A stretch of DNA of 35,428 nucleotides from assembly GCA_021205095.1 (NCBI GenBank), contig JAJPYE010000029.1, forward strand, positions 1 through 35,428, given 5' to 3'. The translations under genes and the position numbers were made by a program. Every line of letters starts with the position of its first letter. The first letter of the stretch is position 1. This document shows positions 1,094 to 19,107 of this stretch, piece after piece. This DNA comes from Oscillospiraceae bacterium. Its GTDB lineage: Bacteria; Bacillota; Clostridia; Oscillospirales; Oscillospiraceae. The notes beneath the pieces are model-generated. The model searched no databases, was not told the origin of the DNA, and saw only the letters and a program-made list of their open reading frames with translations.

Positions 1094-2290
1094 TTAGCCC
1101 TCCACAAGCTCCTTGGTGTCGCGGGCGATGACCAGCTCCTCGTTGGTGGGGATGACCATGACCTTTACCTTGCTGTCCGCAGTGGAGATGATGATGTCCT
1201 CGCCGCGCTTGGAGTTACATTCGGGGCAGATCTCGATGCCCAGATAGGTCAGATACTGGCAGATGGCGGCGCGGGTAGAGGCGCTGTTCTCGCCGATGCC
1301 GGCGGTGAAGATAATGCCGTCAACGCCGTTCATGGCGGCGGCGTAAGCGCCGATGGTCTTGGCAACGCTGTAGTGGAAGATGTCCAGCGCCAGAGCGGCG
1401 CGCTCATTGCCCTCGCTGGCGGCGGTGTCCAGATCGCGGAAGTCGGAGGACACGCCGGAAACGCCCAGCACGCCGGACTTCTTGTTCAGGATGTTGGTCA
1501 GCTCCTTGATGTCCTTGCCGGTGTTGGCGGCCAGGTACTCCAGGATGGACACGTCGATGTCACCGCAGCGGGTGCCCATGGGCAGACCGGCGATGGGGGT
1601 GAAGCCCATAGAGGTGTCCACGCTCTTGCCGCCGTTGATGGCGCAGATGGAGCTGCCGTTGCCCATATGGCAGGAGATGAGCTTCAGCTCCTCCAGGGGC
1701 TTGCCCAGAAGGGCGGCGGCCTGCTTGGAGACATAGCGGTGGCTGGTGCCGTGGAAGCCGTAGCGGCGCACCTTCAGGTCGGAATAATACTCATAGGGGA
1801 TGGCATACATAAACGCCTTGCCGGGCATGGTCTGGTGGAAGGCGGTATCGAACACGGCTACCTGGGGCACGTCGCCCATAACGGCCTTGCAGGCCTCGAT
1901 GCCGGTGATGTTGGCGGGGTTGTGGAGGGGGGCCAGAGGGATACACTCGCTGATGGCGGCCATGACCTCGTCGTTGATGAGGACGGACTGGGCAAATTTC
2001 TCGCCGCCGTGGACGACACGGTGGCCTACGGCGCCGATTTCCGCCATGCTGTCCACCACGCCATACTCAGCGCTGGTCAGCTTATCCAGCACGGCGGCGA
2101 TAGCCTCGGTGTGGGTGGGCATAGCTACGTCCTCGTCAAAGACGGGCTTGCCGTTCTGGGGCTTATGGGACAGATGCCCGTCGATGCCAATGCGCTCACA
2201 CAGGCCCTTGGCCAGGAGCTTTTCCCCCTCCATGTCCAGAAGCTGATACTTCAGGGAGGAACTGCCGCAGTTGATAACAAGAATTTTCAT
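1094..2290 (-). CDS. ackA: Acetate kinase
   Basis: This 398-residue protein converts acetyl phosphate and ADP to acetate and ATP in the cytoplasm, the energy-yielding end of acetate fermentation. It begins [19 protein letters not shown], the acetate kinase signature 1. Later come [29 protein letters not shown] (signature 2), [11 protein letters not shown], and TAGIGENS near the C-terminus. The length matches the family (about 400). The start at 2290 is preceded by AAAGGACA; a longer in-frame reading back to 2434 has no supporting features and overlaps the divergent tmcAL gene. No pta gene is adjacent. A strong terminator follows at 981-1011, so the gene is probably monocistronic. Confidence 0.97.
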
Positions 2291-2307
2291 GGTTGTGTCC
2301 TTTCGTC

Positions 2308-2335
2308 TTGTAAAAAAATAAAAAGCGTGTAAAAT
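2308..2335 (+). promoter_or_regulatory. Possible promoter of the tmcAL-prfA operon
   Basis: TTGTAA (2308-2313), 16 bp, TAAAAT (2330-2335), about 68 bp ahead of the tmcAL start. Spacing is slightly short and the -35 imperfect. Confidence 0.45.
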
Positions 2336-2360
2336 GATATGTATAAAGGATTCTTTTCCT

Positions 2361-2388
2361 ATTTTAACGCAATTTTCAAAAAACGCAA
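2361..2388 (-). promoter_or_regulatory. Possible promoter of ackA
   Basis: On the minus strand, TTGCGT (2388-2383), 16 bp, TAAAAT (2366-2361). It interleaves with the divergent tmcAL promoter region, so the two could interfere. Confidence 0.4.
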
Positions 2389-2402
2389 GAGGAAGTATGC
2401 CC

Positions 2403-3599
2403 ATGAACGTAATTGGTGTTGTGGGGGAGTTCAATCCCTTTCATTATGGACATTATGAACATCTTCTGGAAAGCCGGAGGCTGATCGACTACGAGGCCCC
2501 GGTGGTCTGCGTCATGAGCGGAGACTTTATCCAGCGGGGCGGCCCGGCGGCCTTCTGCAAGCATACCAGAGCGGAGGCGGCGGCCCTGTGCGGGGCGGAT
2601 TTGGTGTTTGAGCTGCCTCTGCCCTGGTGCGGGGCTTCGGCAGAGCGGTTCGCCATGGGTTCCGTGGCCCTGCTGGACAGCCTTGGCGTGGTGACACATC
2701 TGTCCTTCGGCAGCGAGGCGGGAAGTCTAGCTCCCCTGACCGCGCTGGCTTTGGCCGCGGCAGATCCGGAAAATGTGGCGCGGGTGAAGAAGACGATGGA
2801 GGGCGGTATGTCCTACGCTGCCGCGCGGGAGATGGTGCTGCACGACGCCCTGGGTGAGGAATCCAGGCTCCTGCAAACGCCAAACAACATTTTGGGCGTG
2901 GAGTACTTAAAAGCCCTTTTTGCCATTAACTCCCGGATGACCCCCATAACGACCAGGCGCGCAGCCACCCAGCACGACCAGTTTTCCACCGGCAAAAACC
3001 GCAGCGCCAGCCAGCTTCGGGCCATGATGGAGGCGGGGGAGGACATCGGCCCCTATGTACCGGGGCCAGCCAGGCCTTTGACCGCCAGAGAGACGACGGC
3101 GGGGCGGGGGCCGGTGACTATGGAGAGCCTGGAGGAGGCCCTTTTGGCCCGCCTGCGGATGCTGAAGCAGGAGGATTTCTGCGCCCTGCCGGACGCCACG
3201 GAGGGCCTGGGAAACCGCCTTTATAAGGCCGTGCGCAGCGAGGGGAGTATTCAGGGAATATTGTCCAGCGTCAAAACCAAGCGGTATCCGCTCAGCCGTT
3301 TGCGGCGGATGGTGATGTGCGCCGCCCTGGGCGTGCAGGGGTCGGGCTATCCCGAACGGCCCCCGTATGCCAGGCTTTTGGCCTCTACGGAAAAGGGCCG
3401 GGCTTTACTGCGGGATATGGGGACAAAATCCTCTGTTCCTATTATTACCAAGCCCGCCGGGGCTAAGGAGCTTTCCGGTCCGGCGCGGGAGATATTTGAG
3501 CTGACGGCGAACGCACGGGACTTTTATGTTCTGGGCTATCCGGCGGCGGAGGAAAGGGCGGGCGGCTCCGACTGGCGGACAAGCCCCGCAACACTGTAA
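2403..3599 (+). CDS. tmcAL: tRNA(Met) cytidine acetate ligase
   Basis: This 398-residue protein is of the YlbM/TmcAL family, which uses ATP and acetate to make N4-acetylcytidine at the wobble base of elongator tRNA(Met). The N-terminal nucleotidyltransferase motif [10 protein letters not shown] (residues 8-17) contains the HxGH signature. A conserved [12 protein letters not shown] block lies near residues 198-209. The start at 2403 is set by an AGAGGA site 9 bp upstream; the ATG two codons earlier is too close to it. The gene is divergent from acetate kinase, a neighbourhood that makes sense for an acetate-using enzyme. It heads a tightly packed run with prfA and the TsaC-CoaE fusion. Confidence 0.92.
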
Positions 3600-3605
3600 G
3601 GTATT

Positions 3606-4673
3606 ATGGACGAAAAGCTAAGCCAGATAGAGGAAAAATACGAAAAGCTTCAGGCCCGGATGGCTGACCCGGCCACCTATGCCGACCCAGCCCAATATGC
3701 GGCCCTGGCCAAGGAGCAGAAGGAGCTGGAGCCGGTGGTGGTTGCCTGGCGGAAGGTAAAAGAGCTTCGGGCCTCCATAGAGGAGGCAGAGACGCTGCTG
3801 GCAGATGAATCCGACCTGGAGCTTCGCGCCCTGGCCCAGGAGGAAATGACCGAGGCCCAGGAGGCTCTTCCGTCGGCGGAGGCAGCGCTGAAAACCCTGC
3901 TCCTGCCCAAAGACCCCAATGACAGCCGGAACGTCATCATCGAGCTGCGGGGCGGCGTCGGCGGGGAGGAATCGGCCCTGTTTGCGGCAAGTCTCTATCG
4001 GATGTATTCCATGTACGCCGAGCGCCGGGGCTGGCAGGTACGCCTGGCCAATATGAACGACACAGATCTGGGGGGCATTAAGGAGGCCAGCTTTATCATC
4101 GAGGGGGAGGGGGCCTATTCCCGCCTGAAATTCGAGAGCGGCGTCCACCGTGTCCAGCGGGTGCCGGAGACGGAGACCCAGGGCCGGGTGCATACCTCCA
4201 CGGCCACAGTGGCGGTTCTGCCGGAGTTGGACGAGGTGGAGTTCAAGCTGGATATGTCCCAGATACGCATAGACGTGTTTCGCTCCTCCGGGGCCGGGGG
4301 CCAGAAGGTAAACAAAACAGAGACAGCTATCCGCGTCACTCATCTTCCCACCAACACCGTGGTGGAGTGCCAGGATGAGCGGAGCCAGTACAAAAACAAG
4401 GCCCGCGCCCTGTCCATCCTGGCCTCCCGCCTGGCGGAAGCGGAGCGACAGAAGCAGGCGGACGAGCGGGCCGACGCCCGCCGCCATCAGATAGGCACGG
4501 GAATGCGAAACGAGCGGATTCGCACCTATAACTTCCCCCAGGGTCGGGTGACAGACCACCGCATTGGCCTGACACTATATAAAATAGACAGCATTATGAA
4601 CGGGGATTTGGACGAGCTGATAGACGCGCTGATCACCGCCGACCAGGCGGAGCGTCTGCGCCAGGAGGAATGA
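3606..4673 (+). CDS. prfA: Peptide chain release factor 1
   Basis: This 355-residue protein recognises UAA and UAG stop codons and triggers peptide release on the ribosome. The catalytic GGQ is at residues 231-233 inside RSSGAGGQKVNKTETAIR. The stop-codon reading region is RVPETETQGRVHTSTATVAV, with the PxT tripeptide as PET, the form I recall in Bacillus RF1, not the SPF of RF2. The N-terminal half is a helical, charged domain. It starts 6 bp after the tmcAL stop. The methyltransferase gene prmC, which modifies the GGQ glutamine and often sits next to prfA, is not at this locus. Confidence 0.97.
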   Translation: MDEKLSQIEEKYEKLQARMADPATYADPAQYAALAKEQKELEPVVVAWRKVKELRASIEEAETLLADESDLELRALAQEEMTEAQEALPSAEAALKTLLLPKDPNDSRNVIIELRGGVGGEESALFAASLYRMYSMYAERRGWQVRLANMNDTDLGGIKEASFIIEGEGAYSRLKFESGVHRVQRVPETETQGRVHTSTATVAVLPELDEVEFKLDMSQIRIDVFRSSGAGGQKVNKTETAIRVTHLPTNTVVECQDERSQYKNKARALSILASRLAEAERQKQADERADARRHQIGTGMRNERIRTYNFPQGRVTDHRIGLTLYKIDSIMNGDLDELIDALITADQAERLRQEE

Positions 4674-4677
4674 AGCT

Positions 4678-5886
4678 GTGGAAACGAAGATACTCAAAGA
4701 GGATATTGCCCCCGCCGCCGGAATTTTGCGGCAGGGCGGCCTGGTGGCCGTACCAACGGAGACGGTATACGGCCTTGCGGCAAACGGGCTGGACGAGGAA
4801 GCGGTGGAAAAGCTATACGTCGTGAAGGGCCGCCCGGCGGCCAAGCCTATGAGCCTGATGGTGCCGGATGCTTCGGGCCTGGAGCGCTGCGGCAGGGACA
4901 TTCCCCGCGGGGCCTATGTGCTGGCGGAGGCGTTCTGGCCGGGGCCGCTGACCATTGTGGTGGAGGCGGGGGAGGACATTCCCTCCATCGTCACCGCCGG
5001 AGGCCATACGGTGGGCCTGCGCTGCCCGGACAGCGAAAAGACATTGGCCCTGCTGCGGGAATGTGGTCTGCCCCTGGCTGCCCCCTCGGCCAATCCCTCC
5101 GGCCAGCCAAGCCCCAAAACGGCGGCGCAGGTGCTGGATTATTTCCGGGGCAAGATAGACGCCGTTATAGACGGCGGCCCCAGCGGCATCGGGCGGGAGA
5201 GTACTGTGATCGACCTGACGGTCACGCCCTATAAAATCCTGCGCCAGGGAGCCTTGCCGGAGCGGGAGATTGAGCGGGCGCTTATCGCCTCCCTGAAGGT
5301 GGTGGGAGTGACCGGCGGCACGGGGGCGGGCAAGACCACCGCCCTGGACGCCCTGCGGGATATGGGCGCTCTTGTCATCGACGCGGATAAGGTGTATTAT
5401 GACCTGTGCGAGAGCTGCGTTCCCATGCTGGAAAAGATAAACGCCCGGTTCCCTGGCGCAGTGGAAAACGGAGTCTTGCAGCGGAAGAAGCTGGGGAGCG
5501 TGGTGTTTTCCGACCCACAGGCCCTGAACGATTTGCGGAGCATCACGGATGCCTATGTGGTCTCCACCATCGACCATATGCTGGCCTGCCACGCCGCCGC
5601 CGGCGGGAAATACGGGGCGGTGGACGCCATAAACGTGCTGGACACCGGCCTGCGGGACGACTGTGTTGCCACCGTGGGCGTGCTGGCCCCGGCGGAAACG
5701 CGCATTGCCCGCCTGATGGAGCGGGAGGGCATCACCGCCGAGTACGCCGCCCAGCGCATTGCCGCCCAGCGGCCTGACAGCTATTACATGGAAAACTGCA
5801 CCCACGTCATCACAAACGACGGCAGCCGGGAGGAGTTCCGGCTTGCCTGCGATACATTATTCAAACAGATTTTGGAGGAATCATAA
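4678..5886 (+). CDS. TsaC/Sua5 threonylcarbamoyl-AMP synthase fused to dephospho-CoA kinase
   Basis: One 402-residue ORF encodes two enzymes. Residues 1 to about 203 are a YrdC domain with PTETVYGLAAN, KGRPAAKPM and APSANPSGQPSP, and ending GIGRESTVID. Such enzymes make threonylcarbamoyl-AMP for the t6A base of tRNAs. Residues about 207-402 are a CoaE-type kinase, the last step of coenzyme A synthesis, with P-loop GGTGAGKTT (213-221) and IDADKVY (D235, D237). The join has no stop or frameshift. The start is a GTG with AGGAGG nine bases upstream; the extra SUA5 domain of long Sua5 proteins is missing and CoaE takes its place. The kinase half departs from classical CoaE: an aspartate (D291) sits where a His-Pro pair is usual, and the PLLFE block is not recognisable. 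Confidence 0.88.
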   Translation: METKILKEDIAPAAGILRQGGLVAVPTETVYGLAANGLDEEAVEKLYVVKGRPAAKPMSLMVPDASGLERCGRDIPRGAYVLAEAFWPGPLTIVVEAGEDIPSIVTAGGHTVGLRCPDSEKTLALLRECGLPLAAPSANPSGQPSPKTAAQVLDYFRGKIDAVIDGGPSGIGRESTVIDLTVTPYKILRQGALPEREIERALIASLKVVGVTGGTGAGKTTALDALRDMGALVIDADKVYYDLCESCVPMLEKINARFPGAVENGVLQRKKLGSVVFSDPQALNDLRSITDAYVVSTIDHMLACHAAAGGKYGAVDAINVLDTGLRDDCVATVGVLAPAETRIARLMEREGITAEYAAQRIAAQRPDSYYMENCTHVITNDGSREEFRLACDTLFKQILEES

Positions 5887-5887
5887 C

Positions 5888-7267
5888 ATGGACGAGATAA
5901 AAGAAAAGCTGTTCTATCAGCAGAAAAACGGCTATGACCTGCTGGACGCCCAGGAGCGGCTGGCCTGCGAGGAATACTGCCGGGGCTACATGGACTACCT
6001 TGACACGGCCCGCACGGAGCGAGAGGCGGTGGCAGAGGCCATCCGTCTGGCGGAGGAGGCGGGCTTCGTCCCCTATGACCCGGAGAAAGGCCCTGTCCAG
6101 CCGGGGGAGAAGGTATATTACAGCAACCGGGGCAAGGGCCTTATGCTGGCCGTGGGGGGCCGCCAGCCCATGAAAAATGGCTGCGTCATCACCGCCGCCC
6201 ATGTGGACGCACCCCGGCTGGATTTAAAGCAGCGGCCCCTGTATGAGGACGGGGAGCTGGCCTACCTGCGTACCCACTATTACGGCGGCATTAAGAAATA
6301 CCAGTGGACGGCGATCCCTATGGAGCTGCACGGGACGATTGCCATGAAGGACGGCTCCACGGTGGATGTCGCCATTGGCCGGGAGCCGGGAGACCCCCAG
6401 TTTGTCATCACCGACCTTCTGCCCCACCTGGCGAAGGATCAGATGGCCAAGACCATGACCAAGGGGGTAGAGGGGGAAAAGCTGTGCCTGCTGGCGGGCA
6501 GCGTTCCCTACGCCGGGGAGGGCGACAACCGGGTGAAGCTGGCGGTGCTGAGCCTTTTGAATGACCGCTACGGCATCACGGAGGAGGACTTCATCTCTGC
6601 CGAGCTGGAGGCCGTCCCCGCCTTTGACGTGCGGGAGCTGGGCCTTGACCGCAGTCTCATCGGCGGCTACGGCCAGGATGACCGGGTGTGCGCCTATGCG
6701 GAGCTGGCGGCCATTCTCTCCCTGGCGGAGCCGGAGCGCACCGCCGTGTGCATACTGGCGGACAAGGAGGAGATTGGCTCCTACGGTGTCACCGGCATGA
6801 CCAGCCATGCCTTCGAGTATTTCATCCAGCGCCTCTGCGGGGAGGACTGCACGGTGGAGGACTGCTTCGCCCACAGCTTCTGCATCTCCGCCGACGTGAC
6901 GGCGGCTTATGACCCCCTCTATGCCGACGTCAGCGAAAAGAGCAACAGCGCCCGGATTAACTACGGCGTGGGCCTCTGCAAATTCACCGGCTCCGGCGGC
7001 AAATCCGGAGCCAGCGACGCCAGCGCGGAGGTCGTGGCTTATCTCCGCCGCCTGTGTGACGAAAACGCCGTTGTCTGGCAGATGTGCGAGCTTGGGAAGG
7101 TAGACCAGGGCGGCGGCGGCACCGTGGCCCTCTACATGGCCGGCCGGAACATCGACACCATAGACGCAGGCGTCCCCGTCCTGTCCATGCACGCCCCCTT
7201 CGAGACCACCGCCAAGCTGGACTGTTATATGACGTATAAGTGCATGAAAGCTGCGTATAACGCGTAA
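5888..7267 (+). CDS. M18 family zinc aminopeptidase
   Basis: This 459-residue cytoplasmic metalloaminopeptidase belongs to the M18 (aspartyl aminopeptidase/aminopeptidase I) family, which forms large tetrahedral complexes and trims N-terminal residues. Metal-binding and catalytic blocks are all visible: ITAAHVDAPRLDLKQ (H105), GYGQDDRVCAYAEL, DKEEIGSYG, SADVTAAYDP, and the C-terminal SMHAPFETTAKLD. The start at 5888 is preceded by GGAGGA at a good distance. It begins one base after the stop codon of the TsaC-CoaE fusion and closes the operon, which ends in the hairpin at 7303-7344. Its exact substrate preference cannot be read from sequence. Confidence 0.93.
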   Translation: MDEIKEKLFYQQKNGYDLLDAQERLACEEYCRGYMDYLDTARTEREAVAEAIRLAEEAGFVPYDPEKGPVQPGEKVYYSNRGKGLMLAVGGRQPMKNGCVITAAHVDAPRLDLKQRPLYEDGELAYLRTHYYGGIKKYQWTAIPMELHGTIAMKDGSTVDVAIGREPGDPQFVITDLLPHLAKDQMAKTMTKGVEGEKLCLLAGSVPYAGEGDNRVKLAVLSLLNDRYGITEEDFISAELEAVPAFDVRELGLDRSLIGGYGQDDRVCAYAELAAILSLAEPERTAVCILADKEEIGSYGVTGMTSHAFEYFIQRLCGEDCTVEDCFAHSFCISADVTAAYDPLYADVSEKSNSARINYGVGLCKFTGSGGKSGASDASAEVVAYLRRLCDENAVVWQMCELGKVDQGGGGTVALYMAGRNIDTIDAGVPVLSMHAPFETTAKLDCYMTYKCMKAAYNA

Positions 7268-7307: not shown

Positions 7308-7344
7308 CACCCAAAGCCGGGGAAACTGGCTTTGGGTGATTTTT
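7303..7344 (+). terminator. Rho-independent terminator of the tmcAL-M18 operon, touching the tepA start
   Basis: A 16-bp perfect stem (7303-7318 with 7328-7343) with a 9-base loop; the T run continues to 7344. The tepA ATG follows at 7345, and the only ribosome-binding-like sequence, GGGTGA (7334-7339), is inside the 3' arm. Confidence 0.9.
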
Positions 7345-7971
7345 ATGGACAGCATGGACAATATCCGGGACATGGGGACGGCGGCGCCCTCGGCTATTCA
7401 GGTTCTCACCATCATCGGGCAGATTGAGGGCCACCAGGTGCTGGGGGAGGAGAACAAGACCACAAAATATGAACACGTTATGCCCCTTCTGGCGGCGGTG
7501 GAGGAATCGCCGGATGTGAAGGGGTTGCTTATTCTGGTGAACACCGTGGGCGGGGACATTGAGGCGGGGCTTGCTATCGCGGAGCTTATCGCCGGGATGA
7601 AAAAGCCGACCGCCTCCCTGGTGCTGGGAGGCGGTCACTCTATCGGCGTGCCGCTGGCTGTGGCGGCGAAGCGCAGTCTGATAGCGCCTTCCGCTGCCAT
7701 GACCATCCATCCCGTGCGTTTAAACGGCATGGTCATCGGCGTCAGCCAAACATATGATTATTTTGCCCGCACCCAGGAGCGCATCGTCCGCTTCGTCACG
7801 GATAATTCCCGCATCAGCCGGGAACGGTTTCTCGATTATATGCTCCGCACCGGGGAGATCGCGAACGACGTGGGCAGTATTCTGGACAGTGGGGAGGCTG
7901 TCTCATGCGGCCTGATGGACGGCTTGGGAACCCTGTCCGACGCACTGGACTGGCTCCATCAGGAAAATTGA
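7345..7971 (+). CDS. tepA: TepA-type Clp-protease-like serine protease
   Basis: This 208-residue protein is a ClpP-fold (crotonase-like) protease of the TepA/YmfB branch. In Bacillus TepA has been linked to protein translocation and spore-related turnover. The branch-specific stretch NKTTKYEHV is followed by NTVGGDIEAGLAIAE, then the nucleophile block GGGHSIGVPLAVA (S99) and TIHPVR with the catalytic histidine (H122). In-frame starts exist at 7336 (GTG), 7345, 7354 and 7372. I chose 7345 because GGGTGA lies 5 bp upstream, though this site is weak and sits in the terminator hairpin. It is convergent with the acyltransferase, with no clear terminator in the 36-bp gap. Confidence 0.88.
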   Translation: MDSMDNIRDMGTAAPSAIQVLTIIGQIEGHQVLGEENKTTKYEHVMPLLAAVEESPDVKGLLILVNTVGGDIEAGLAIAELIAGMKKPTASLVLGGGHSIGVPLAVAAKRSLIAPSAAMTIHPVRLNGMVIGVSQTYDYFARTQERIVRFVTDNSRISRERFLDYMLRTGEIANDVGSILDSGEAVSCGLMDGLGTLSDALDWLHQEN

Positions 7972-9326: not shown

Positions 9327-11096
9327 ATGGAAGAACATAAGACGAAGGCCGTGTCCGGCAAGGATTATTGGAAAAACTGGCTCCATCGCTTTCTGGGGCT
9401 GCTGGCGCCGGCCTTTTTACTTTGCTTCACGGGGCTGTTCTTTGGCCCGCTGGACATTGTAAACTCAAACCAGGCATATCTGACTTTTTCGGCGGGGACG
9501 CTGTTCTGGGCGCTGGCTGGGGTGACGGTCGGCGTAACGGCGCTGCTGGCCGCTGTGCTGGCATTTGTTCCCGGTAAGGCCCAGCGCATTGTTTATGCCC
9601 TTCTGCTGGGCGTTGCCGTGCTGTTCTATCTTCAGGGCGTTCTGCTGAACGGCGAGCTGGCGGTACTGGACGGCTCCGGCTTCGACTGGCATGACGATGC
9701 CCAGGCCGCTTACATAAATATTGCCGTGTGGGCTGTGGCCCTGGTGGTCATTGTGATAGCCGGGTGGTTTTTGCACGGCGCGTATCGTACGGCGGGGTAC
9801 ATCCTCTGCGCCGCCCTGGTGCTGGCCCAGGCTGTCAGCCTGGTGACTACCTGGCAGGCGGAGGACCCGGATGCCATCAACTATCAGCTCGCGGGGGACG
9901 ATGAGTTTGTGCTGTCCTCGGACGAGAATATTATTGTTATCACCTTGGATCAGATGTCACCTTTAATTTTTGAGGAGGCGCTGGAGGAGGATCCGACACT
10001 GGCGGAATTTTTCCAGGACTTTATCTACTACGATAATATGTCCTCCTGCTATTCCTTCACCTTCCCGTCTCTGTGTTATCTGCTGACCCATGAGTATTTT
10101 GACACCACCATTCCTACCGTGGATGCGGTGTATAACGCCTGGCACAGCGACCTGGCAAATAACTTCTATGACACGCTCCACGATAACGGCTACACGGTGA
10201 ATCTCTATCTTGAGTCCAACTACGCCGCGATTGACACGGAGAATATGCTGGGTAAGGTGGACAATATTGCCGTGGCCGGAGACCTTGTGGTGACAGGAAA
10301 GCTACTGGAAAACGCGGTGTATATGTCCCTGTACCGCTATCTGCCTACCATGCTGAAAAATGATTTCTACGTCTCCACTGGAGGCATTGTGGATGTGGCG
10401 CAATATCAGGGTGTGGAAAAGCTGCACATCAACTATGACTTCTATACTGAGTTGCAGGAGGAACGCATCAGCCTGACGGACGACACCAAGATTTTTAGCT
10501 GGTATCACCTTCAGGGCGCTCACTTCCCTTATGTGGTGGATTATGATGGCTACCTGTGCGACGAGGACGAGACCGACCGCATGAGTCAGCTCCATGGTTA
10601 TCTGCTGGCCGTCGGTGAATTTTTGGAGCAGATGAAGGAGCAGGGCATCTATGACGACGCCACCATCATCATCTCCGCCGACCATGGCTATTTCGAGTGC
10701 TTCCAGGCAGCTTTCCTCATTAAAATGCCTGGCCAGGAGTTTGAGGAAATGCAGGTCACAAGCGCACCTGTGGCCCAGGAGGACATCATGCCCACCATCC
10801 TGTATGCCCTGGGTGAGGATTACAGCGACTACGGCACCACCGTCTTCGACTGGGAGGAGGGAGACGTCCGGGAGCGGACGACCCGCGTTTGGGGCTATAT
10901 GAAGTCCTATCCCGATGTGGATTGGGTGGGCAACCTGAACCAGTGGGACGCTCAGGCCAACGGCTCCTACCGCTATAATGTGTTCGGCGTATTCAACTAT
11001 ATCGGCGACCGGGACACCATTTATGAGGAAGAACGCTACTGGTACCTGTACGGCGTGGCCGACGCCATTGAGCCGCTGTACGACTCCTTCTATTGA
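9327..11096 (+). CDS. Sulfatase-fold membrane protein, probable phospho-group transferase
   Basis: This 589-residue protein has four to five membrane spans in residues about 20-175, then an extracytoplasmic alkaline-phosphatase/sulfatase-fold domain. Metal-site motifs are ITLDQM (D208) and ISADHGYF (D452, H453). At the position of the sulfatase C/S-x-P-S-R motif it has T-F-P-S with threonine T245. Thr is the nucleophile in lipoteichoic acid synthases and phosphoethanolamine transferases, while sulfatases need Cys or Ser; transfer of a phospho-alcohol group is therefore more likely than sulfate ester hydrolysis. A histidine in WYHLQGAHFPYV is a further candidate ligand. It is the first gene of the operon, 27 bp before the YidC-TagF fusion. 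The exact substrate is unknown. Confidence 0.82.
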   Translation: MEEHKTKAVSGKDYWKNWLHRFLGLLAPAFLLCFTGLFFGPLDIVNSNQAYLTFSAGTLFWALAGVTVGVTALLAAVLAFVPGKAQRIVYALLLGVAVLFYLQGVLLNGELAVLDGSGFDWHDDAQAAYINIAVWAVALVVIVIAGWFLHGAYRTAGYILCAALVLAQAVSLVTTWQAEDPDAINYQLAGDDEFVLSSDENIIVITLDQMSPLIFEEALEEDPTLAEFFQDFIYYDNMSSCYSFTFPSLCYLLTHEYFDTTIPTVDAVYNAWHSDLANNFYDTLHDNGYTVNLYLESNYAAIDTENMLGKVDNIAVAGDLVVTGKLLENAVYMSLYRYLPTMLKNDFYVSTGGIVDVAQYQGVEKLHINYDFYTELQEERISLTDDTKIFSWYHLQGAHFPYVVDYDGYLCDEDETDRMSQLHGYLLAVGEFLEQMKEQGIYDDATIIISADHGYFECFQAAFLIKMPGQEFEEMQVTSAPVAQEDIMPTILYALGEDYSDYGTTVFDWEEGDVRERTTRVWGYMKSYPDVDWVGNLNQWDAQANGSYRYNVFGVFNYIGDRDTIYEEERYWYLYGVADAIEPLYDSFY

Positions 11097-11123: not shown

Positions 11124-13013
11124 ATGATTGACTTTCTGGCAAAGATATTCGGCTATGTGATGGATCTGTGCTACGCCATCGTGCCAAATTACGTGGTGGC
11201 TATCGCCCTGTTTACACTGATCACTAAAATCATTCTCATGCCCGTGTCCCTGTGGACGAACCGCAACGGCCTGAAAATGGTGGCCCTGATGCCGGAGCTG
11301 AACCGCATTAAGGCGCAGTATTACGGCGACCGGGAGAAGATAGGCGACGAGCAGGCCGCCCTGTATAAGAAAAAGCATTACCGGCCCCTGCTGAGTACTA
11401 TCCCGCTGATTGTTCAAATCATCATCCTTTTGGGGATGATTGGGGTCATCCATACGGTGACGGACACAGGCGCGGCTCCGGCCCTGGGCCTTATCCCGAT
11501 GACGGACGGGGGCTGGACGTGGCTCATGCCGCTGGGGGCGGGGCTTGCGGCGGTGGTGCTGAGCTTCGCGCAGAACCACATAAATCCCCTTCAGCGGGAA
11601 CAGAGTAAAGCCGAGCAGCTCTCCTCCAACGGGGTGTCCGTGGGCATTTCCCTGGTGCTGGGTGTGTTTGTCTCCACCGGTGTGGCGCTTTACTGGATTT
11701 ACAGTAACCTCTTTTCTATCCTGGTGCAGCTCGCCTGCAACGCCATCATGCCGCCGAAGAAGTATGTGGATTATGACGAGCTAGAGACCAGCCGGAAAGA
11801 GCTGGAGGCGCTGGATCAGTTCGGCCAGACACAGACCAAGGAGCTGAAAAAGCGGGAGCGGGCGGACTACAAACGCTTCTTCCATGTGGCCAACAAACGG
11901 CTGGTGTTCTATTCCGAGGCCAGCGGGTTTTACAAGTATTTTCAGAATACCATCGAGTCGCTGCTGGCCCGGACGAACGTGGTGATAAACTATGTCACCA
12001 GCGATCCAGACGACCAGATCTTCGCCCTGGCGGAAAAGGAACCCCGCATTCAGCCCTATTATATCGGCGAACGGCGGATGATTACCCTGTTCATGAAGAT
12101 GGACGCGGACATCGTGGTAATGACCATGCCGGATCTGGACACTTATCATTTCAAACGCAGCTATGTGCGCAAGGACGTGGAATACGTTTATATGTTCCAC
12201 GGCATTTTCTCCGGCCTGGTGACGCTGCGGAAGGGAGCGCTTGATCATTTCGACACCCTGCTGACGCCCACCCCCGGCTTCGAGGTAGAGATGCGGGGCT
12301 GGAACGAGAAAATGGGCCTGCCGAACCAGAAAATGGTTCCCTGCGGCTACGGCGTCATTGACAACATGGCGGCGGAATACGACCGCATGGAAAAGCGGGA
12401 AAACCCCGTAAAAACGGTGCTTATCGCTCCTTCCTGGCAGGCGGATAATATCCTGGATAGCTGTCTTGCGGACTTGGTGGAGCCGCTGCTGGCAGCGGGC
12501 TTTGACGTGACCGTTCGGCCTCATCCCCAGTATATCCGCCGGTTCCCTCAGCGGCTGGAAAAGCTCATTCACGACTGCGAAGGCTACGACAAGGAGCGGT
12601 TCCGCTTCCAGCTTAATTTCAGCTCCAATGAGACAGTGTTCTCCTCAGACGTTCTGGTGACGGACTGGTCAAACATCGGCTGTGAATATGCCCTGGCGAC
12701 GAAAAAGCCTGTGATGTACATAAACACACCCATGAAGCGGGTCAACGAAGCATGGACAGACGAGGACATCGCCCGCTGCGCCCCGGACGCCAAGCTCCGG
12801 GATGTGATGGGGGCGGCGCTGGAGGTGGCCGATGTACGGGATAAGGCGGCGGCCACAGCCCTGGATATGATTGAAAACCGGGCGGCCTATGCGCAGACAC
12901 TGGAAACCGTTCGGCAGGAGAAGCTTTATCATTTCGGCGAGAGCGGCAAGTACGCCGCCGATTATCTCATCAGCCGTATGCTGGAAAATCAAAAAAAGAA
13001 AAAGGACGATTGA
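11124..13013 (+). CDS. YidC/Oxa1-type insertase domain fused to CDP-glycerol glycerophosphotransferase-like domain
   Basis: One uninterrupted 629-residue ORF. Residues 1 to about 210 match the YidC core: a first span with LITKIILMP, then a charged cytoplasmic hairpin with MPELNRIKAQYYGDREKI and an ALYKKKHYRPLLSTIPLIVQ block (the NPLAG..P counterpart), then more spans to about residue 205. The positive groove residue of YidC (usually Arg) would be K35. A charged linker (210-255) leads to a TagF/TagB-like glycosyltransferase-B-fold domain with a FHG motif (H359), RPHP (465-468) and DVLVTDWSNIGCEYAL (D514, S516). Such enzymes transfer glycerol- or ribitol-phosphate from CDP-alcohols to build teichoic-type polymers on the inner membrane face. 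The YidC part may anchor the enzyme or handle its lipid-linked product. The ribosome site is weak (GAGAGAG). Confidence 0.88.
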   Translation: MIDFLAKIFGYVMDLCYAIVPNYVVAIALFTLITKIILMPVSLWTNRNGLKMVALMPELNRIKAQYYGDREKIGDEQAALYKKKHYRPLLSTIPLIVQIIILLGMIGVIHTVTDTGAAPALGLIPMTDGGWTWLMPLGAGLAAVVLSFAQNHINPLQREQSKAEQLSSNGVSVGISLVLGVFVSTGVALYWIYSNLFSILVQLACNAIMPPKKYVDYDELETSRKELEALDQFGQTQTKELKKRERADYKRFFHVANKRLVFYSEASGFYKYFQNTIESLLARTNVVINYVTSDPDDQIFALAEKEPRIQPYYIGERRMITLFMKMDADIVVMTMPDLDTYHFKRSYVRKDVEYVYMFHGIFSGLVTLRKGALDHFDTLLTPTPGFEVEMRGWNEKMGLPNQKMVPCGYGVIDNMAAEYDRMEKRENPVKTVLIAPSWQADNILDSCLADLVEPLLAAGFDVTVRPHPQYIRRFPQRLEKLIHDCEGYDKERFRFQLNFSSNETVFSSDVLVTDWSNIGCEYALATKKPVMYINTPMKRVNEAWTDEDIARCAPDAKLRDVMGAALEVADVRDKAAATALDMIENRAAYAQTLETVRQEKLYHFGESGKYAADYLISRMLENQKKKKDD

Positions 13014-13023
13014 GATTAAAGCC

Positions 13024-13821
13024 ATGATGATTCAATGTGACAATTCATATATCCCTCAGGTAATCGACTATATTGGCGAGGATAAGTATAAGTGCTTTTA
13101 CCTGTATATGGATATGAAGGAATATGGCGCCCAGGGGCCGGATGTGGATCTTTGGATGTGCGGGGAGGAAAATCAGATAGAGGGGGTCATGTACCGCTAT
13201 TTTGACACCCTGCACCTGTACAGCCGGGAGGTGTTTCCCCAGCGGGAGGCGCTGACAATGATAGAGAAGATGCATCCCAAGTGCGTAACCGGGGAGCAGC
13301 GGAGCATTGACCCTCTCAGGGGGAAAACCGCCGATACATACGCCTATGAGCTGAGCCATATCATCACTACGGATAAGTTGATGGACGGAAAGTCTGATCT
13401 GTCCGTCCAGCAGGCGGGGAAGGCGGATGTGCCGGAGATCGCCCGGCTGATGATGAAGGAGCCGATTTACAATTCCGTTTATACCTATGAAAGCCTGTGT
13501 GAGCAGTTGGAAAACCGCATTGACAGCGGCTTTGGCCGCCTGTTCGTCATGCGGGAGCCGGGGGGCCGACTGGTAGCCACCAACGCCACCAGCGCGGAGA
13601 CGGAGGAGCTTGCCGTTATCAGCGGTCTTGTGACAGACACGGAAATGCGGGGCCACGGCCTGGGCCGGGCCATTACTGCCAGCACCTGGAACCTGGTGCT
13701 GACGGAGGGAAAACGGGGACTTGCCTATCTGGGGGCGGACAATGAGAACACCCTGTCCCTGCACCACAAAATGGGCTACGACTTTTTGGGCCTGTATGCC
13801 CGGTTACTTCGAGAGGACTGA
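13024..13821 (+). CDS. GNAT family N-acetyltransferase
   Basis: This 265-residue cytoplasmic protein has a C-terminal GNAT domain. The acetyl-CoA pyrophosphate-binding loop is in TDTEMRGHGLGRAITA (RxxGxG type), followed by YLGADNENTLSLHHKMGYDF, the usual strand-helix before a GY-F ending. The N-terminal half looks like a second, decayed GNAT-like domain without the loop motif, so this may be a tandem form. It starts 11 bp after the YidC-TagF stop and ends 12 bp before the nucleotidyltransferase fusion, so it is surely co-transcribed. Acetylation of an amino group on the polymer precursor is an inference from position. The start may be the ATG at 13024 or the next codon; no strong ribosome site distinguishes them. 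Confidence 0.85.
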   Translation: MMIQCDNSYIPQVIDYIGEDKYKCFYLYMDMKEYGAQGPDVDLWMCGEENQIEGVMYRYFDTLHLYSREVFPQREALTMIEKMHPKCVTGEQRSIDPLRGKTADTYAYELSHIITTDKLMDGKSDLSVQQAGKADVPEIARLMMKEPIYNSVYTYESLCEQLENRIDSGFGRLFVMREPGGRLVATNATSAETEELAVISGLVTDTEMRGHGLGRAITASTWNLVLTEGKRGLAYLGADNENTLSLHHKMGYDFLGLYARLLRED

Positions 13822-13832
13822 GAGGAGCAGCT

Positions 13833-15641
13833 ATGCAGGCATTAATGCTGGCCGCCGGTATGGGAAAGCGCCTGGGGGCCTATACGAACAACCAAACCAA
13901 GTGCATGGTGAAGGTGGGGGGCTATACGCTGCTGGAACACGCGGCGGAAGCCCTGCGGCAGGCGGGGATCAGCCGTTTCGTCATCGTGGTGGGCTACGAG
14001 GGGGAGAGGCTGAAAGCCTTTGCCAGGGAAAAGCTCAGCGACTTTGACTTGGTTTTCGTGGAAAACCCGGACTATGCTACCACAAATAATATCTATTCCC
14101 TGTATCTGGCCAGGGAGGAGCTGATGGCGGACGATACCATTCTTTTGGAGTCTGACCTGATATACGACCCAAGCCTGATTCGCCGCCTGGTGGAGGCCCC
14201 GGAGCCGAACATGGTGGCGGTGGCGAAATATGAGCAGTGGATGGACGGCACTGTTACCCTGGTGGACGAGGACGGCCTGATTCGGGAGTTCATTGAGAAA
14301 AAGGATTTCAGCTTCGCCAGCGCGGATACATATTACAAGACAGTTAATGTGTATAAATTCAGCCGGGAGTTTTCTACCCGGCAATATGTGCCGTTTATGG
14401 TGTCATATCTTCAGGCTTACGGGGCCAACCAGTATTATGAAATGGTGCTGAAGGCCCTGGCTCACCTGCCCTTTGCCGGTCTGCGGGCCTTTAAGATGGG
14501 AGATCTGAAATGGTATGAGATAGACGATGTGCAGGATCTGGACATTGCAAATACCATTTTCGCCAGCGAGGAGGACAGGCTCCACGCCTATGAGCGGCAT
14601 TTCGGCGGCTATTGGCGGTTTGACGGGCTGAAGGACTTCTGCTATCTGGTGAACCCCTATTTTCCCCCGAAGAAAATGCTGGAGCAAATGCAATATTCCT
14701 ATTCCCAGCTCCTTACCAGCTATCCCTCCGGGATGTACGTGCAGAAGCTGATGGCGGGCAAGATGTTCGGCATACGGGAGGAGCTTGTCCTGGTGGGAAA
14801 TGGAGCGGCGGAGCTTATTAATACCCTGGGCCGCACTATGCGGGGCCGGACGGGCCTTTCCATTCCCGCATTCAACGAATATGTCCGCTGCTTCCCGGAA
14901 TGTGAGATCGTTCCCATCCAGGCCGGGGACTATGGCTTCCAGTTTGATATGGCCGCCCTCCGCAAGGCGGCGGCGGAGATGGATAATCTTGTTATCATCA
15001 ACCCTGACAACCCCAGCGGCAGCTTTTTGAAGCGCGAGGAAATGATGGAGCTGGCCGACATCTGCCGGGAGCATGGCACAACCTTTGTGGTGGATGAATC
15101 CTTTGTGGATTTTGCGGAGGCGCCGCTGCGCTTCACGCTGCTGGATAACGAAATTTTGGACGCCTATCCCAACCTGATGGTCATTAAGAGCATCAGCAAA
15201 TCCTACGGCGTGCCTGGCCTGCGCCTGGGTGTGGCCGCCAGCGGTAACACGGCCTGGATGGAGCAGCTTCGGGGGCTTTTGCCTATCTGGAATATCAACT
15301 CCTTCGGGGAGTATTTCTTCCAAATCGTGGGCCTTTACAGCGGGGAGTACAGAACCGCCTGCAATAAAATCGTTCGTCAGCGGGAAAAAATGGAGGAACG
15401 GCTGCGTTCGTTCCCCTTCCTGACGCCCTATCCTTCCCAGGCCAACTACATCATGTGCCGGGTGGAGGGCATTAGCTCCAAGGTGCTGGCAAGCCAGCTT
15501 CTGCGGGACGATAACCTGCTTATCAAAGACCTGTCCACGAAAAACGGCTTCGGCGGTGCGGATTTCATCCGTGTGGCCGTCCGGGATGAGACGGACAATG
15601 AGGCGCTGTATCAGGCGCTGGAAAAAGTTCATGTGACATAA
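13833..15641 (+). CDS. LicC-like nucleotidyltransferase fused to CobD/HisC-like PLP enzyme
   Basis: This 602-residue protein joins two enzymes. Residues 1 to about 245 are a sugar-phosphate-type nucleotidyltransferase: LAAGMGKRLG with K23 downstream, then VENPDYATTNNIYSLYLA (77-93), which is typical of LicC-like cytidylyltransferases for phosphocholine or related amino-alcohol phosphates, and ESDLIYD. Residues about 250-602 are a fold-type I PLP enzyme: LVGNGAAELI, NPDNPSG (390-396), DESFVDF (D421), and the PLP lysine in SISKSYGVPGLRLG (K456). These blocks are nearer to CobD (threonine-phosphate decarboxylase) than to ordinary aminotransferases. A CobD-like step would give a phospho-amino-alcohol that the other half could activate with CTP. 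It closes the operon; GAGGAG lies 6 bp before the ATG. An aminotransferase role is the main alternative. Confidence 0.87.
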   Translation: MQALMLAAGMGKRLGAYTNNQTKCMVKVGGYTLLEHAAEALRQAGISRFVIVVGYEGERLKAFAREKLSDFDLVFVENPDYATTNNIYSLYLAREELMADDTILLESDLIYDPSLIRRLVEAPEPNMVAVAKYEQWMDGTVTLVDEDGLIREFIEKKDFSFASADTYYKTVNVYKFSREFSTRQYVPFMVSYLQAYGANQYYEMVLKALAHLPFAGLRAFKMGDLKWYEIDDVQDLDIANTIFASEEDRLHAYERHFGGYWRFDGLKDFCYLVNPYFPPKKMLEQMQYSYSQLLTSYPSGMYVQKLMAGKMFGIREELVLVGNGAAELINTLGRTMRGRTGLSIPAFNEYVRCFPECEIVPIQAGDYGFQFDMAALRKAAAEMDNLVIINPDNPSGSFLKREEMMELADICREHGTTFVVDESFVDFAEAPLRFTLLDNEILDAYPNLMVIKSISKSYGVPGLRLGVAASGNTAWMEQLRGLLPIWNINSFGEYFFQIVGLYSGEYRTACNKIVRQREKMEERLRSFPFLTPYPSQANYIMCRVEGISSKVLASQLLRDDNLLIKDLSTKNGFGGADFIRVAVRDETDNEALYQALEKVHVT

Positions 15642-15888: not shown

Positions 15889-18800
15889 ATGAAAAAGAGT
15901 ATAACCAAACGGTTTGTATCCCTGCTGATGACCCTGGCGCTGCTCTTGTCTTTGGCGGTGGCCGCCGTTCCTGCCACGGCATTGGAATCGGAAGAGCCGA
16001 CAGAGGAAAGCAGCGGCACCTTTGTCAATGTTTCAGAGGATGGCGGCGAGGATTATATTAATCTGTGCGTTCCCCGTTCGTTTGAGGCGATCATTCCCGT
16101 GGATATGACCGAGGAGGAGGCCCAGGCTGCCGCCGAATCGGCGGAGTGGTCGCTGATTTACGACGAGGCGGCGGGGTATCTTGATCCGGAGCTTTATCCG
16201 AACCACACCACCGGCGGTGCGCTGGACAGCTTCACTGCCCTGAATGAGGAGGCTCTGTTCAGCGAGCCGGTCACGACCGTGGAGGTGGTGGACGGTCAGG
16301 TGTGCCTGAAGGTGTCCTTCGACAGCTATCTGTATTTCTACAATTCCCGTACCGACGAGGACGGGGAGACGGTGTACACCGCCGACTACAGCGTACCCCA
16401 TTCCAACGGCGGCTCCTATCTGGATGTGTGCGGGTATTATGACCTTTGCGTGTCCGTGGAAGGGGAGACCCTGGGAGGCGTGGAGGTGAAAATTACCCCT
16501 TATGACAATTTCCACACCATGCAGGAGATTTACGATGCGATAGAGGAGCTGGTGGCCTACGGACAGGAGAACACCGACCTGTATATCGAGGAATTTTCCA
16601 TGGGCTCCAGCCAGGGCGACAACGGCCTGGAGAGCCTGGATATGCCCTATATCATCATTGCCAAGGATCAGGACGCGGTGCTGAACTGGCTGTCCCTGAA
16701 GGAGGAGGCGGAGAGCGACCCCACCGGCGTGATCGAGAAGATTGAAAGCGGTGAGCTGACCGATTATCAGGTTCCCGTGATGTACTCTAACATTCACTCC
16801 AACGAGGTCTCCGCGTCGGACGCCGTGCTGGGCTTTGCGGAAATGCTGGTGGAGGCTGCCGCCGGGGACGGAACCATCGACTACAACACGCTTACCGGCT
16901 TTACAGAGGAAGGCGAGGCCGAGCTTGCGGAGCAGATGGGCGCTGAGGGCGAGCAGTACAGCGTGGCCGTGCCTGACCTGGTAGCCGACACCGCCACCTA
17001 TCTGGGCTATATCAAGGCCGAGGGTTCCAGCGTGTCCGCCGCTGTGGATCTGGATACATACTATACCCAGGAGACTGTCACAGTAGATATTGACGAGCTT
17101 CTGGAGGACGTGTTCTTCATTCTGGTGCCAGAGGAGAATGTGGAGGGCCGTACCTACGTCACCCGTACCTCCTCCGGCGGCTTCGACCTGAACCGGGATA
17201 ACTCCTTCCAGACCCAGGCTGAGACCCAGAACATGACCCAGCTTATCGCTATGTGGAACCCTGTCAGCTTTACGGAGTTCCATGGCCGGGTTCAGACCTT
17301 CCAGTGCGAACCCTGCGACCCGCCCCATGAGCCGAACTTTGAGTACGATCTGCTGGCGGAGCATTTGATGACCGGCGGCGAGGCCTTCGGCATTGCGGCT
17401 GTTGCCAACAACGACAGCTATAACAGCTATGTCATTCCCCAGCGGGATTACCTGAGCTATACAGGCGAGCTGACAGAGGACGGGGAGTATGAGACCTGCT
17501 GGTATGACCCGTGGGACGATATGTCCACCTCCTACACGCCTCAATACGCCATGCTTCACGGCACGGTGGCCTACACCGTAGAGGTACCCGCCTATAACGA
17601 CGACGTGGTGCAGGCGGTGGTATACGGCCAGCTTGGTCAGTCCAACTATATTGCTGAGAATAAGGAGAGCTATTTCCTCTGCCAGCTCCAGATTTTTGAG
17701 CGTGGCGTCACCAATGCCAACTCCGATGCTTATGAGCTGGTGGGCCAGTGGTTCTGCGACGTGTACGATGTGGAGGGGGCCGAGGCCGACCTGTTCCGTC
17801 CGGAATATGACGGCGAGGGCCAGAATGGAAACTTCTACCCTGAGTGCTATATCATCCCTCTGGACAGCGAGCATCAGTCCAACCTCCAGGCCGCCGATGA
17901 GATGCTGACCTATCTGGTACGCAACGGCGTTACTATCCAGATCGCGGACGAGGCCTTCACCTATGACGGAGTAGAATATCCCGCCGGTACGGCTGTGGTG
18001 TCCATGTACCAGGCTAAGCGCAGTGTGGCAAACGGCGTGCTGTATGACGGCACGGTTATCACAGAATGGCCGGTTCTTTATTCGGAGGGTATTACCGCCT
18101 TCAATATGACCCGTGGCTTTGACATGATCGTGTGCGCAGAGCCTGCCGCCTATGAGATTATCGAGGCAGCCGTCAGCGATGCGGACACCTGGACGGTGGC
18201 GTCTGATGTGGTCAGCACCAGCCAGGTCATTATCAACAACACCTCCGAGGCGGCTGTGGCCGCTGTCAACGCCCTGCTGAAGGAGGGCAAGAGCGTTAGC
18301 CTGATTATGGAGGGAGATTATATTGGAAGCTTCCTGGTGTCCCAGGAGGATTATGAGAGCGTTTCCGCCGATTACCTGCTCACCGCCGAGGAGGTGGAGG
18401 GAGAGGCACCGACCTCCCAGACGCTGACCAAGGCCCCGGTGGTCTATATTTCCGGCAAGCCGGACGACAATGATTCCGGCTTCGTGAAGACCACGCTGGT
18501 CTCCGGCTCCTATGAGTATAACTATGACCGGCAGGCCATGGAGATTCTTGGCTTCGAGGTAACAGACGACGCCTCTGAGGCGGACATTATCATTGGCGCT
18601 TCTGCGTTGGATGAGCAGGCGCTGGAGGCCGTTAAGACCGGCACACCTTATATTGGTTATGGCCGCCGGGCCATTGCCTCCGCCGTATCCCTGTTTGAGG
18701 ACGGAACTTTGGTGCGGGAGACGGTCAGCTCCAGCTCTATGGACGCCCTGGGCTATGTTACCTATCCTGCGGACAGCTTGATCACCGCTAGCTATGTGGC

Positions 18801-19107
18801 CGAAGGCGATTATATTCTCTATGGCTACGGGGCGGGCTACTTCTCCGTTATCCCCGATGGGGCGGAGATCCTGGTGCAGATGGACGGCTCTCAGGAGCTG
18901 CTGGAGGGCTTCCTGAACTCCGACGGCGAACACTATGAGGACTTCCTGAACGACTCCATCCAGGCTATTTCCTATGAGGGCGAGGGCGCGGACGGCGCAA
19001 CGCTGAATGTGGTGCTGTTTGCCAATACCCTGACCAATAAGGTGCATCAGCGGGATGAGTTTGGCTTCATTGCCAATGCCGCTTTTGCCGCTGTTCTGGC
19101 CGATTAA
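15889..19107 (+). CDS. Large secreted M14 family zinc carboxypeptidase-like protein
   Basis: This 1072-residue protein starts with a clear signal peptide (MKKSITKR, a hydrophobic run, then AVPATA before ESEE). The M14 zinc site is visible: NIHSNEVSASD supplies HxxE (H303, E306), FTEFHGRV supplies the third ligand (H465), and TVEVPAY supplies the likely catalytic glutamate (E565). M14 enzymes remove C-terminal residues from peptides or act on cell-wall peptides. The remaining 450 C-terminal residues match nothing I recognise and contain no sortase signal, cell-wall-binding repeats or final membrane span. The protein is strongly acidic. It has its own promoter and terminator. An extracellular role supplying peptides to the importer encoded just downstream on the other strand is plausible but unproven. 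Confidence 0.85.
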   Translation: MKKSITKRFVSLLMTLALLLSLAVAAVPATALESEEPTEESSGTFVNVSEDGGEDYINLCVPRSFEAIIPVDMTEEEAQAAAESAEWSLIYDEAAGYLDPELYPNHTTGGALDSFTALNEEALFSEPVTTVEVVDGQVCLKVSFDSYLYFYNSRTDEDGETVYTADYSVPHSNGGSYLDVCGYYDLCVSVEGETLGGVEVKITPYDNFHTMQEIYDAIEELVAYGQENTDLYIEEFSMGSSQGDNGLESLDMPYIIIAKDQDAVLNWLSLKEEAESDPTGVIEKIESGELTDYQVPVMYSNIHSNEVSASDAVLGFAEMLVEAAAGDGTIDYNTLTGFTEEGEAELAEQMGAEGEQYSVAVPDLVADTATYLGYIKAEGSSVSAAVDLDTYYTQETVTVDIDELLEDVFFILVPEENVEGRTYVTRTSSGGFDLNRDNSFQTQAETQNMTQLIAMWNPVSFTEFHGRVQTFQCEPCDPPHEPNFEYDLLAEHLMTGGEAFGIAAVANNDSYNSYVIPQRDYLSYTGELTEDGEYETCWYDPWDDMSTSYTPQYAMLHGTVAYTVEVPAYNDDVVQAVVYGQLGQSNYIAENKESYFLCQLQIFERGVTNANSDAYELVGQWFCDVYDVEGAEADLFRPEYDGEGQNGNFYPECYIIPLDSEHQSNLQAADEMLTYLVRNGVTIQIADEAFTYDGVEYPAGTAVVSMYQAKRSVANGVLYDGTVITEWPVLYSEGITAFNMTRGFDMIVCAEPAAYEIIEAAVSDADTWTVASDVVSTSQVIINNTSEAAVAAVNALLKEGKSVSLIMEGDYIGSFLVSQEDYESVSADYLLTAEEVEGEAPTSQTLTKAPVVYISGKPDDNDSGFVKTTLVSGSYEYNYDRQAMEILGFEVTDDASEADIIIGASALDEQALEAVKTGTPYIGYGRRAIASAVSLFEDGTLVRETVSSSSMDALGYVTYPADSLITASYVAEGDYILYGYGAGYFSVIPDGAEILVQMDGSQELLEGFLNSDGEHYEDFLNDSIQAISYEGEGADGATLNVVLFANTLTNKVHQRDEFGFIANAAFAAVLAD

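Follow-up and report, generated by a model that had tools for sequence, protein, structure and literature searches.

A YidC domain fused to a TagF-like transferase and its place in a candidate three-component module for head-group transfer

A 35,428-nucleotide stretch of DNA from an Oscillospiraceae bacterium (GenBank assembly GCA_021205095.1, contig JAJPYE010000029.1; the whole stretch is called the window here) carries, at 11124-13013 of the forward strand, a gene that joins a YidC insertase domain to a TagF-like transferase domain. The fusion is real. The second domain is called GLY here, a name used for the transferase domain that takes a head group from a cytidine diphosphate (CDP) donor. 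Together with a separate protein of the alkaline phosphatase/sulfatase fold (AlkP), YidC and GLY form a well supported three-domain module. A tentative reading, to which we give slightly under an even chance, is that the fusion is the inner-face enzyme and the membrane translocator of a three-component system for head-group transfer. Each part comes from a known family. What appears to be new is how they are put together, with YidC covalently joined to a partner in either of two wirings; none of this was met in the open-licence literature searched. That search covered titles and the starts of abstracts, where no such fusion is described, and included no query that named a YidC-sulfatase fusion. 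The module may give gut bacteria a way to put small phosphate head groups, phosphoethanolamine or phosphocholine for example, on the cell surface; it would be a form of surface tailoring from CDP-activated donors, possibly with a flippase of a new kind.

The routes by which CDP-choline and cytidine monophosphate (CMP)-phosphonate groups reach the bacterial surface are only partly known, and the physiological use of lipid scrambling by insertases is, to our knowledge, an open question. A YidC covalently tied to a CDP-head-group transferase in some bacteria and to a surface AlkP in others brings both questions within reach of tests on purified proteins. If the proposal is true, an insertase fold has been recruited into cell-envelope chemistry.

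The fusion gene and its relatives

The frame at 11124-13013 is a single uninterrupted open reading frame (ORF) that starts with ATG and has 629 codons for 629 amino acids. A first-pass annotation, made from the letters alone, had described it as a YidC/TagF-like fusion, and both halves score above the curated Pfam cut-offs. The N-terminal part matches 60KD_IMP (PF02096; 5.2e-30, residues 23-206, 105 bits against a cut-off of 35) and TIGR03592 (93 bits against 84.3). The C-terminal part matches Glyphos_transf (PF04464; 5e-6, residues 405-532, 26.2 bits against 22.1), a partial match that covers only profile positions 161-291 of 367. The motifs LITKIILMP, FHG, RPHP and DVLVTDWSN are all present in the translation. 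An AlphaFold2 model of the whole chain, built on a 27-row alignment (pLDDT 88.1, pTM 0.67), shows a five-helix YidC core and a GT-B domain. Foldseek matches the chain to Cps3D (8qoy, 3.8e-10), TagF (3l7l, 2.7e-9) and YidC (6al2, 1.3e-6), and to the five-helix core fold of YidC 3wo6 with a template-modelling (TM) score of 0.72 by target; the N-terminal part is YidC-like in the model, as had been supposed.

Three parts can be told apart. The YidC/Oxa1 domain (11124-11798, residues 1-225; this and all features given below lie on the forward strand) has the five-helix core, the hairpin and a lysine, K35, at the groove. A helical linker follows (11799-11885, about residues 226-254), for which the model has helices at 217-234 and 239-254. 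The GLY domain (11886-12989, residues 255-622) is a TagF-like GT-B transferase. With the YidC/Oxa1/Alb3 family the first domain shares the five-helix core, the hairpin, the groove residue and a score above the Pfam cut-off; it differs in that a transferase is fused in place of the C-terminal tail, and in that the same genome has a separate housekeeping YidC (on contig C17). A canonical glycerophosphotransferase of this genome is found on contig C27. There a LicD gene, the sole LicD match of the genome and outside the cluster of the window, lies about 1.3 kb from it (locus L143), in what is probably a separate envelope cluster.

An artefact (missed stop, frameshift or chimera) was considered and ruled out by single-chain relatives in several genera and by the pattern of substitutions. 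The relatives are open frames of 606-761 amino acids in six genera of the family. The copy in locus L005 is 97% identical and of equal length, with 134 synonymous and 21 non-synonymous codon differences, and the pattern of GC content by codon position is common to both halves of the gene. The break between the halves that the first-pass annotation had named as a possible refutation has left no sign. Unbroken fusions of this type in the fetched loci encode 605-802 amino acids. In one metagenome-assembled genome (MAG; locus L027, 9980-12006) the fusion is broken into two frames of 449 and 203 amino acids.

Named relatives of the whole chain (23 loci) belong to Oscillospiraceae, other Clostridia and one Lentisphaerae MAG; two cultured strains are among them, Eubacterium coprostanoligenes ATCC 51222 and Clostridium aminobutyricum DSM 2634. 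By our reading of the match rows, 11 of 300 family genomes carry the fusion as one chain. A plasmid-borne copy was also considered and rejected, since the plasmid records searched gave no match at 1e-20.

Two wirings of the same three domains

The window and 70 other loci were scanned with our own hidden Markov models (HMMs), and representatives were checked with Pfam. The HMMs were built in part from loci that they then labelled, with Pfam on a subset as the check, and the thresholds for neighbour labels were our own choice. The sampled genomes are related and the locus counts are not independent. Duplicates L070 and L147 are dropped from the counts of gene types and neighbours, and the count of 32 type I loci also omits the window's close kin (L005-L008, L011).

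Two arrangements are seen. In type I, to which the window belongs, a YidC-GLY fusion is accompanied by a separate AlkP. In type II, a stand-alone GLY (360-449 amino acids) lies beside a YidC-AlkP fusion (842-938 amino acids). The loci hold 37 type I genes, 25 stand-alone GLY genes of a second subfamily (type-2 GLY) and six stand-alone or broken GLY genes of the first. A YidC-AlkP fusion lies within 100 bp of the type-2 GLY in 20 of the 25 loci. In the remaining five, the AlkP frame is cut by the contig start (L060), there is no AlkP (L065), the fetched stretch ends early and adjoins L109 (L113), or the AlkP frame is about 5 kb off and partial in the fetched stretch (L118, L141). Pfam sees both parts of the YidC-AlkP fusion in L109, L115 and the unlinked L158; in L058 it shows the YidC part only, and AlkP is identified there by our own HMM. 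A classical flippase, our first guess for the neighbour of the stand-alone GLY, was wrong; the neighbour is the YidC-AlkP fusion.

Linkage is also evident for type I. AlkP is found within 7 kb of the fusion in 18 of 32 loci and within 100 bp in 14; in the window it ends 27 bases upstream. ORFs labelled as AlkP or as head-group supply make up 63 of 281 within 3 kb of GLY, versus 4 of 165 beyond 5 kb. Among the 300 family genomes, type I genes occur in 11, matches to the AlkP profile (1e-30) in 12, and both in 10, that is, AlkP is found in 10/11 genomes with YidC-GLY versus 2/289 without it. In the window's genus both genes are present in three of six genomes and neither in the other three. The Fisher test for co-occurrence, uncorrected for kinship, gives 5e-16 by genome and 1e-6 by genus. 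The first-pass annotation had spoken of an adjacent membrane transferase as a dedicated partner, and in AlkP this neighbour turns out to be a conserved one, by linkage as well as by co-occurrence.

In the two genomes that have AlkP only, G057 (76% complete) and G248 (65% complete), the AlkP frames run off the contig end. At L160, in G248, the frame (2269-4518) runs on from AlkP into the beginning of a YidC domain before the contig stops. This YidC part has 48 residues and scores 39 bits with our own HMM, while Pfam shows the sulfatase part only. AlkP, YidC and GLY may possibly form one chain there. The catalytic end of AlkP is joined to the N-terminus of YidC, so that this N-terminus would be outside too.

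Two further features of these loci deserve mention. Five of them (L103, L108, L109, L115, L117) have one GLY gene with two YidC-AlkP fusions, which suggests two outer acceptors or two head groups per module. In L034 (2672-2971), L035 (1153-1452), L036 (1170-1469), L023 (9603-9971) and L066 (6732-6962), GLY adjoins a small membrane protein that carries a Y-[ILV]-DP motif, and a similar stretch is found at the N-terminus of the AlkP proteins in L025, L026 and L101. These small proteins are a possible fourth component.

The YidC domain

K35 aligns with position 366, an arginine, in the E. coli YidC chains. The first-pass annotation took the lysine as a hint of a changed role. This no longer holds, because lysine is commoner than arginine both in housekeeping YidCs (18 Lys and 9 Arg of 27) and in type I fusions (30 Lys and 2 Arg of the 32 rows with a letter there). 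In type II the position is Asn in 20 of 25 sequences, and Lys or Arg in none. N48, Q150, N151, Q157, P211, K213, D216 and Y217 are conserved in type I and absent or uncommon in housekeeping YidC; Q150, N151 and Q157 are conserved in at least 30 of 33 type I rows and are rare in the housekeeping set. N154 and Q160 of type I are also found in the housekeeping set (7/27 and 11/26). The type I-specific residues sit mostly on the predicted cytosolic side. Their conservation favours a specialised, working YidC domain over a plain anchor.

In a tree computed without seven loci (the duplicates L070 and L147 and the close kin L005-L008 and L011), the 33 type I YidC domains form one clade (support 100/99) close to the family's housekeeping YidCs. 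Another clade (100/100), on a long branch, holds the 25 type II domains. A single clade of both types is marginally rejected by the approximately unbiased (AU) test (p 0.044), with long branches in play. The separate clades and this p value favour two recruitments of YidC.

Hydropathy finds three spans only in the YidC part of the window protein, versus the five helices of the model. The C-terminus of Gram-positive YidC is in the cytosol. Since GLY comes after the last YidC helix, it is predicted to be cytosolic, as a CDP donor requires.

Could the YidC domain be a dedicated insertase or assembly factor for AlkP, or for a small membrane subunit? Insertion of such a partner had been one suggestion of the first-pass annotation. 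In favour of such a role, the domain keeps the core features of YidC, the linked AlkP has several spans and the small membrane proteins with the Y-DP motif lie near some loci. However, in the 20 type II loci YidC and AlkP are one chain, in which it would be awkward for the partner to be inserted by its own N-terminus. This genome has a housekeeping YidC besides, and so do 8 of the 11 type I genomes among the match rows listed (the other three have one extra unlisted match each); a CDP transferase would be superfluous for a dedicated insertase. We consider this role improbable.

The AlkP partner

The AlkP gene (9327-11096) encodes 589 amino acids, with five predicted spans followed by an LtaS-like catalytic domain predicted to lie outside the cell. 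Hydropathy gives five spans for the window protein, five for that of L020 and four for that of L012. LtaS likewise has five spans, and lipids are the source of head groups for enzymes of its type. The window protein matches Pfam Sulfatase (5.4e-7), and LtaS (2w5q, 2e-11) is the best PDB match of the family profile. Five spans and a catalytic domain are what it has in common with LtaS and other AlkP-superfamily transferases that act from lipid to acceptor, with LtaS as the best profile match. It differs from LtaS in falling below the NCBIfam LtaS cut-off (23.5 bits against 970), in being nearer to sulfatases by fold alone, and in its linkage to a CDP-head-group module, the type II copies being fused to YidC. 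The model has a pLDDT of 81.0. In an alignment of 21 rows D208, H399, D452 and H453 are invariant and T245 is conserved at 90% or more; we take these five to be the metal-binding and nucleophile motifs.

The GLY domain and its donor

H359, RPHP (465-468), D514 and S516 of GLY are invariant in 18 aligned rows and are presumably catalytic. The HP and D-S motifs align with TarL, and the GLY profile matches Cps3D (5.4e-8) and TarL (2.8e-7); a fold search with GLY does not separate TagF from other GT-B proteins. GLY has the GT-B fold and the conserved His, RPHP and D-S motifs in common with the TagF/TarL/Cps3D group (PF04464). It differs in its weak, partial Pfam match, in having a YidC domain as its membrane part and in belonging to a genome where no CDP-glycerol synthase was matched.

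The last point bears on whether GLY is a TagF-type glycerol-phosphate polymerase making a teichoic-acid-like chain, as the first-pass annotation had it from the TagF likeness. The Pfam name and the GT-B fold agree with such a role. Against this, the glycerol-3-phosphate cytidylyltransferase TIGR01518 has no match in this genome (97% complete) at E 0.001. CTP_transf_like matches in the 71 loci occur only as a domain fused to phosphoenolpyruvate (PEP) mutase, by a home-made two-sequence profile of limited reach. Moreover, the genes near GLY point to other CDP or CMP donors: choline, phosphonate and amino-alcohol. CDP-glycerol is an unlikely donor in this genome, and polymerisation of glycerol phosphate is very unlikely.

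A phosphonate donor was likewise rejected here, PEP mutase having no match in the genome. With neither TIGR01518 nor PEP mutase, a CDP-amino-alcohol is the likely donor, to judge from gene content.

Supply of head groups

AlkP, the fusion, a GNAT-family gene and a cytidylyltransferase-PLP fusion (PLP, pyridoxal phosphate) are co-directional in the window. The GNAT gene (13024-13821, 265 amino acids; ATG at 13024 by comparison with L005; Pfam FR47 1.6e-6) starts 10 bases after the YidC-GLY fusion, and has relatives in 10 loci, which all belong to close kin of the window. The cytidylyltransferase-PLP fusion (13833-15641, 602 amino acids) follows after 11 bases. Its N-terminal half (13833-14552) is LicC/PntC-like (NTP_transf_3 3.4e-17; LicC 1jyk 1.5e-14, then 6pd1 5.4e-11). 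The PLP half (14595-15641) resembles CobD-like threonine-phosphate decarboxylase (PDB 6oux 1.4e-40, 1lc5 3.3e-30; TIGR01140 1.9e-53, under the curated cut-off). This LicC-like/CobD-like fusion probably makes a CDP-amino-alcohol, and corresponds to the PntC-aminotransferase fusion, though it is built in another way. A LicC-like protein fused to a CobD/HisC-like PLP enzyme also occurs at L118 (8093-10009), so that such fusions are found near type I and type II modules.

If choline kinase, PEP mutase and the LicC-CobD fusion are counted as supply genes, one or more lie near 14 of 32 type I loci and 9 of 25 type-2 GLY loci. With lone cytidylyltransferases counted as well, 15 and 13 loci, respectively, have no supply gene within 7 kb, some of the stretches being short. 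Three kinds of supply are seen. For choline, a choline kinase is paired with a LicC-like gene, in most cases together with a BCCT transporter (type I: L023, L025, L067, L068, L073-L075; type II: L060, L062, L065, L104). Phosphonate supply consists of a PEP mutase with fused cytidylyltransferase, a thiamine pyrophosphate (TPP) decarboxylase, an iron-dependent alcohol dehydrogenase and a PntC-like gene (type I: L012, L017, L069, L099; type II: L109; partial sets: L110, L115, L141). The cytidylyltransferase-CobD-like fusion is found in the window and its kin, and in type II at L118. Besides this fusion, three of the close kin encode a choline kinase and a LicC-like protein some 4-5 kb downstream of the YidC-GLY gene (L006, 9460-11144; L007, 15567-17251; L008, 8115-9802), possibly two head groups in one strain.

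PMC6697681 sets out the LicC/PntC logic and also a PEP mutase fused to a cytidylyltransferase (Fom1, hydroxyethylphosphonate). The clusters described there carry LicD-like phosphotransferases or glycosyltransferases, and the acceptor is left open as 'carbohydrate or lipid nucleophiles'; the main text mentions neither 'YidC' nor 'sulfatase'. With these Lic (phosphocholine) and Pnt (phosphonate) pathways the present loci share LicC/PntC-like cytidylyltransferases, choline kinase and the cytidylyltransferase-fused PEP mutase. They differ in that their supply genes are linked to a set of YidC, GLY and AlkP, and in that LicD is not in the window cluster.

A possible head-group cycle

We infer the lipid carrier, the acceptors of the loading step and of the last step, and the flipping. 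In the simplest cycle, the LicC-like/CobD-like fusion would, to judge from gene content, use phosphoserine or phosphothreonine to make a CDP-activated amino-alcohol, with CDP-ethanolamine or CDP-aminopropanol as the probable product. GLY would then move the phospho-head group onto the hydroxyl of a membrane lipid, diacylglycerol for example, with release of CMP. The loaded lipid would cross the bilayer by way of the YidC groove, and the spent lipid would return. Outside, the LtaS-like AlkP would transfer the head group from lipid to a surface acceptor. Three-component transmembrane glycosylation proceeds by loading, flipping and transfer. The same logic is proposed here, with a phospho-head group instead of a sugar and an Oxa1-superfamily domain as the part that would flip.

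E. coli YidC, Oxa1 and Get1 are reported to scramble phospholipids in vitro (PMC10491306). It had been suggested in the first-pass annotation that the groove holds or flips a lipid-linked polymer. That the groove handles a lipid-linked substrate is still the best reading of the evidence, not a proven one; a glycerol-phosphate polymer as that substrate is disfavoured. Slightly more tentative than the cycle above is the specific claim that the YidC/Oxa1 domain is a dedicated lipid flippase: GLY would charge a carrier lipid from CDP/CMP-activated choline, ethanolamine or phosphonate, YidC would exchange charged and spent lipid between the leaflets, AlkP would spend the charge on a surface acceptor, and the insertase fold would have been recruited probably twice.

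Several observations weigh against this cycle. Two type I genomes are without this AlkP: G010, within the sample, which has another sulfatase-fold gene, and G533, outside it, which has only two matches, both under the cut-off. The topology of type II is unsettled, with 7 spans after YidC in L104, 7 in L115, 6 in L058, 5 in L109 and 4 in L062 by hydropathy. GLY clusters without YidC exist (L066, L140). Finally, the fold search with AlkP ranks sulfatases first, above LtaP, while LtaS is the best match by sequence profile.

The last two observations agree with a different scheme, in which GLY, like LicD, decorates a lipid-linked glycan on the inner face, YidC is chiefly an anchor or docking part, another flippase exports the product and AlkP edits or extends it outside. 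TagF/TarL/Cps3D-type enzymes act on polymer hydroxyls, and the GLY profile matches to Cps3D and TarL fit this scheme. However, a plain anchor could do without the hairpin, without the core motifs that are conserved and without the charge in the groove, YidC is found on either partner, GLY or AlkP, and the type I residues Q150, N151 and Q157 mark a specialised role. We regard this scheme as possible, if somewhat doubtful.

Other genes of the window

Housekeeping genes occupy 2334-7267, upstream of the module. Among them is a frame at 4678-5886 in which a Sua5/YrdC domain and the dephospho-CoA kinase CoaE are fused in a single chain of 402 amino acids. No family was found for 908-2332. The gene at 7336-7971 is ClpP-like, with weak matches to phage proteases. 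Scans for promoters (10 versus 6.2 in shuffles) and terminators (10 versus 5.8) gave counts little above those of shuffled sequence. Downstream, 15889-19107 encodes a protein of 1072 amino acids for which no Pfam or NCBIfam family above curated cut-off and no PHROG match was found; it has one weak match to M14 peptidase, and relatives in three close-kin loci only.
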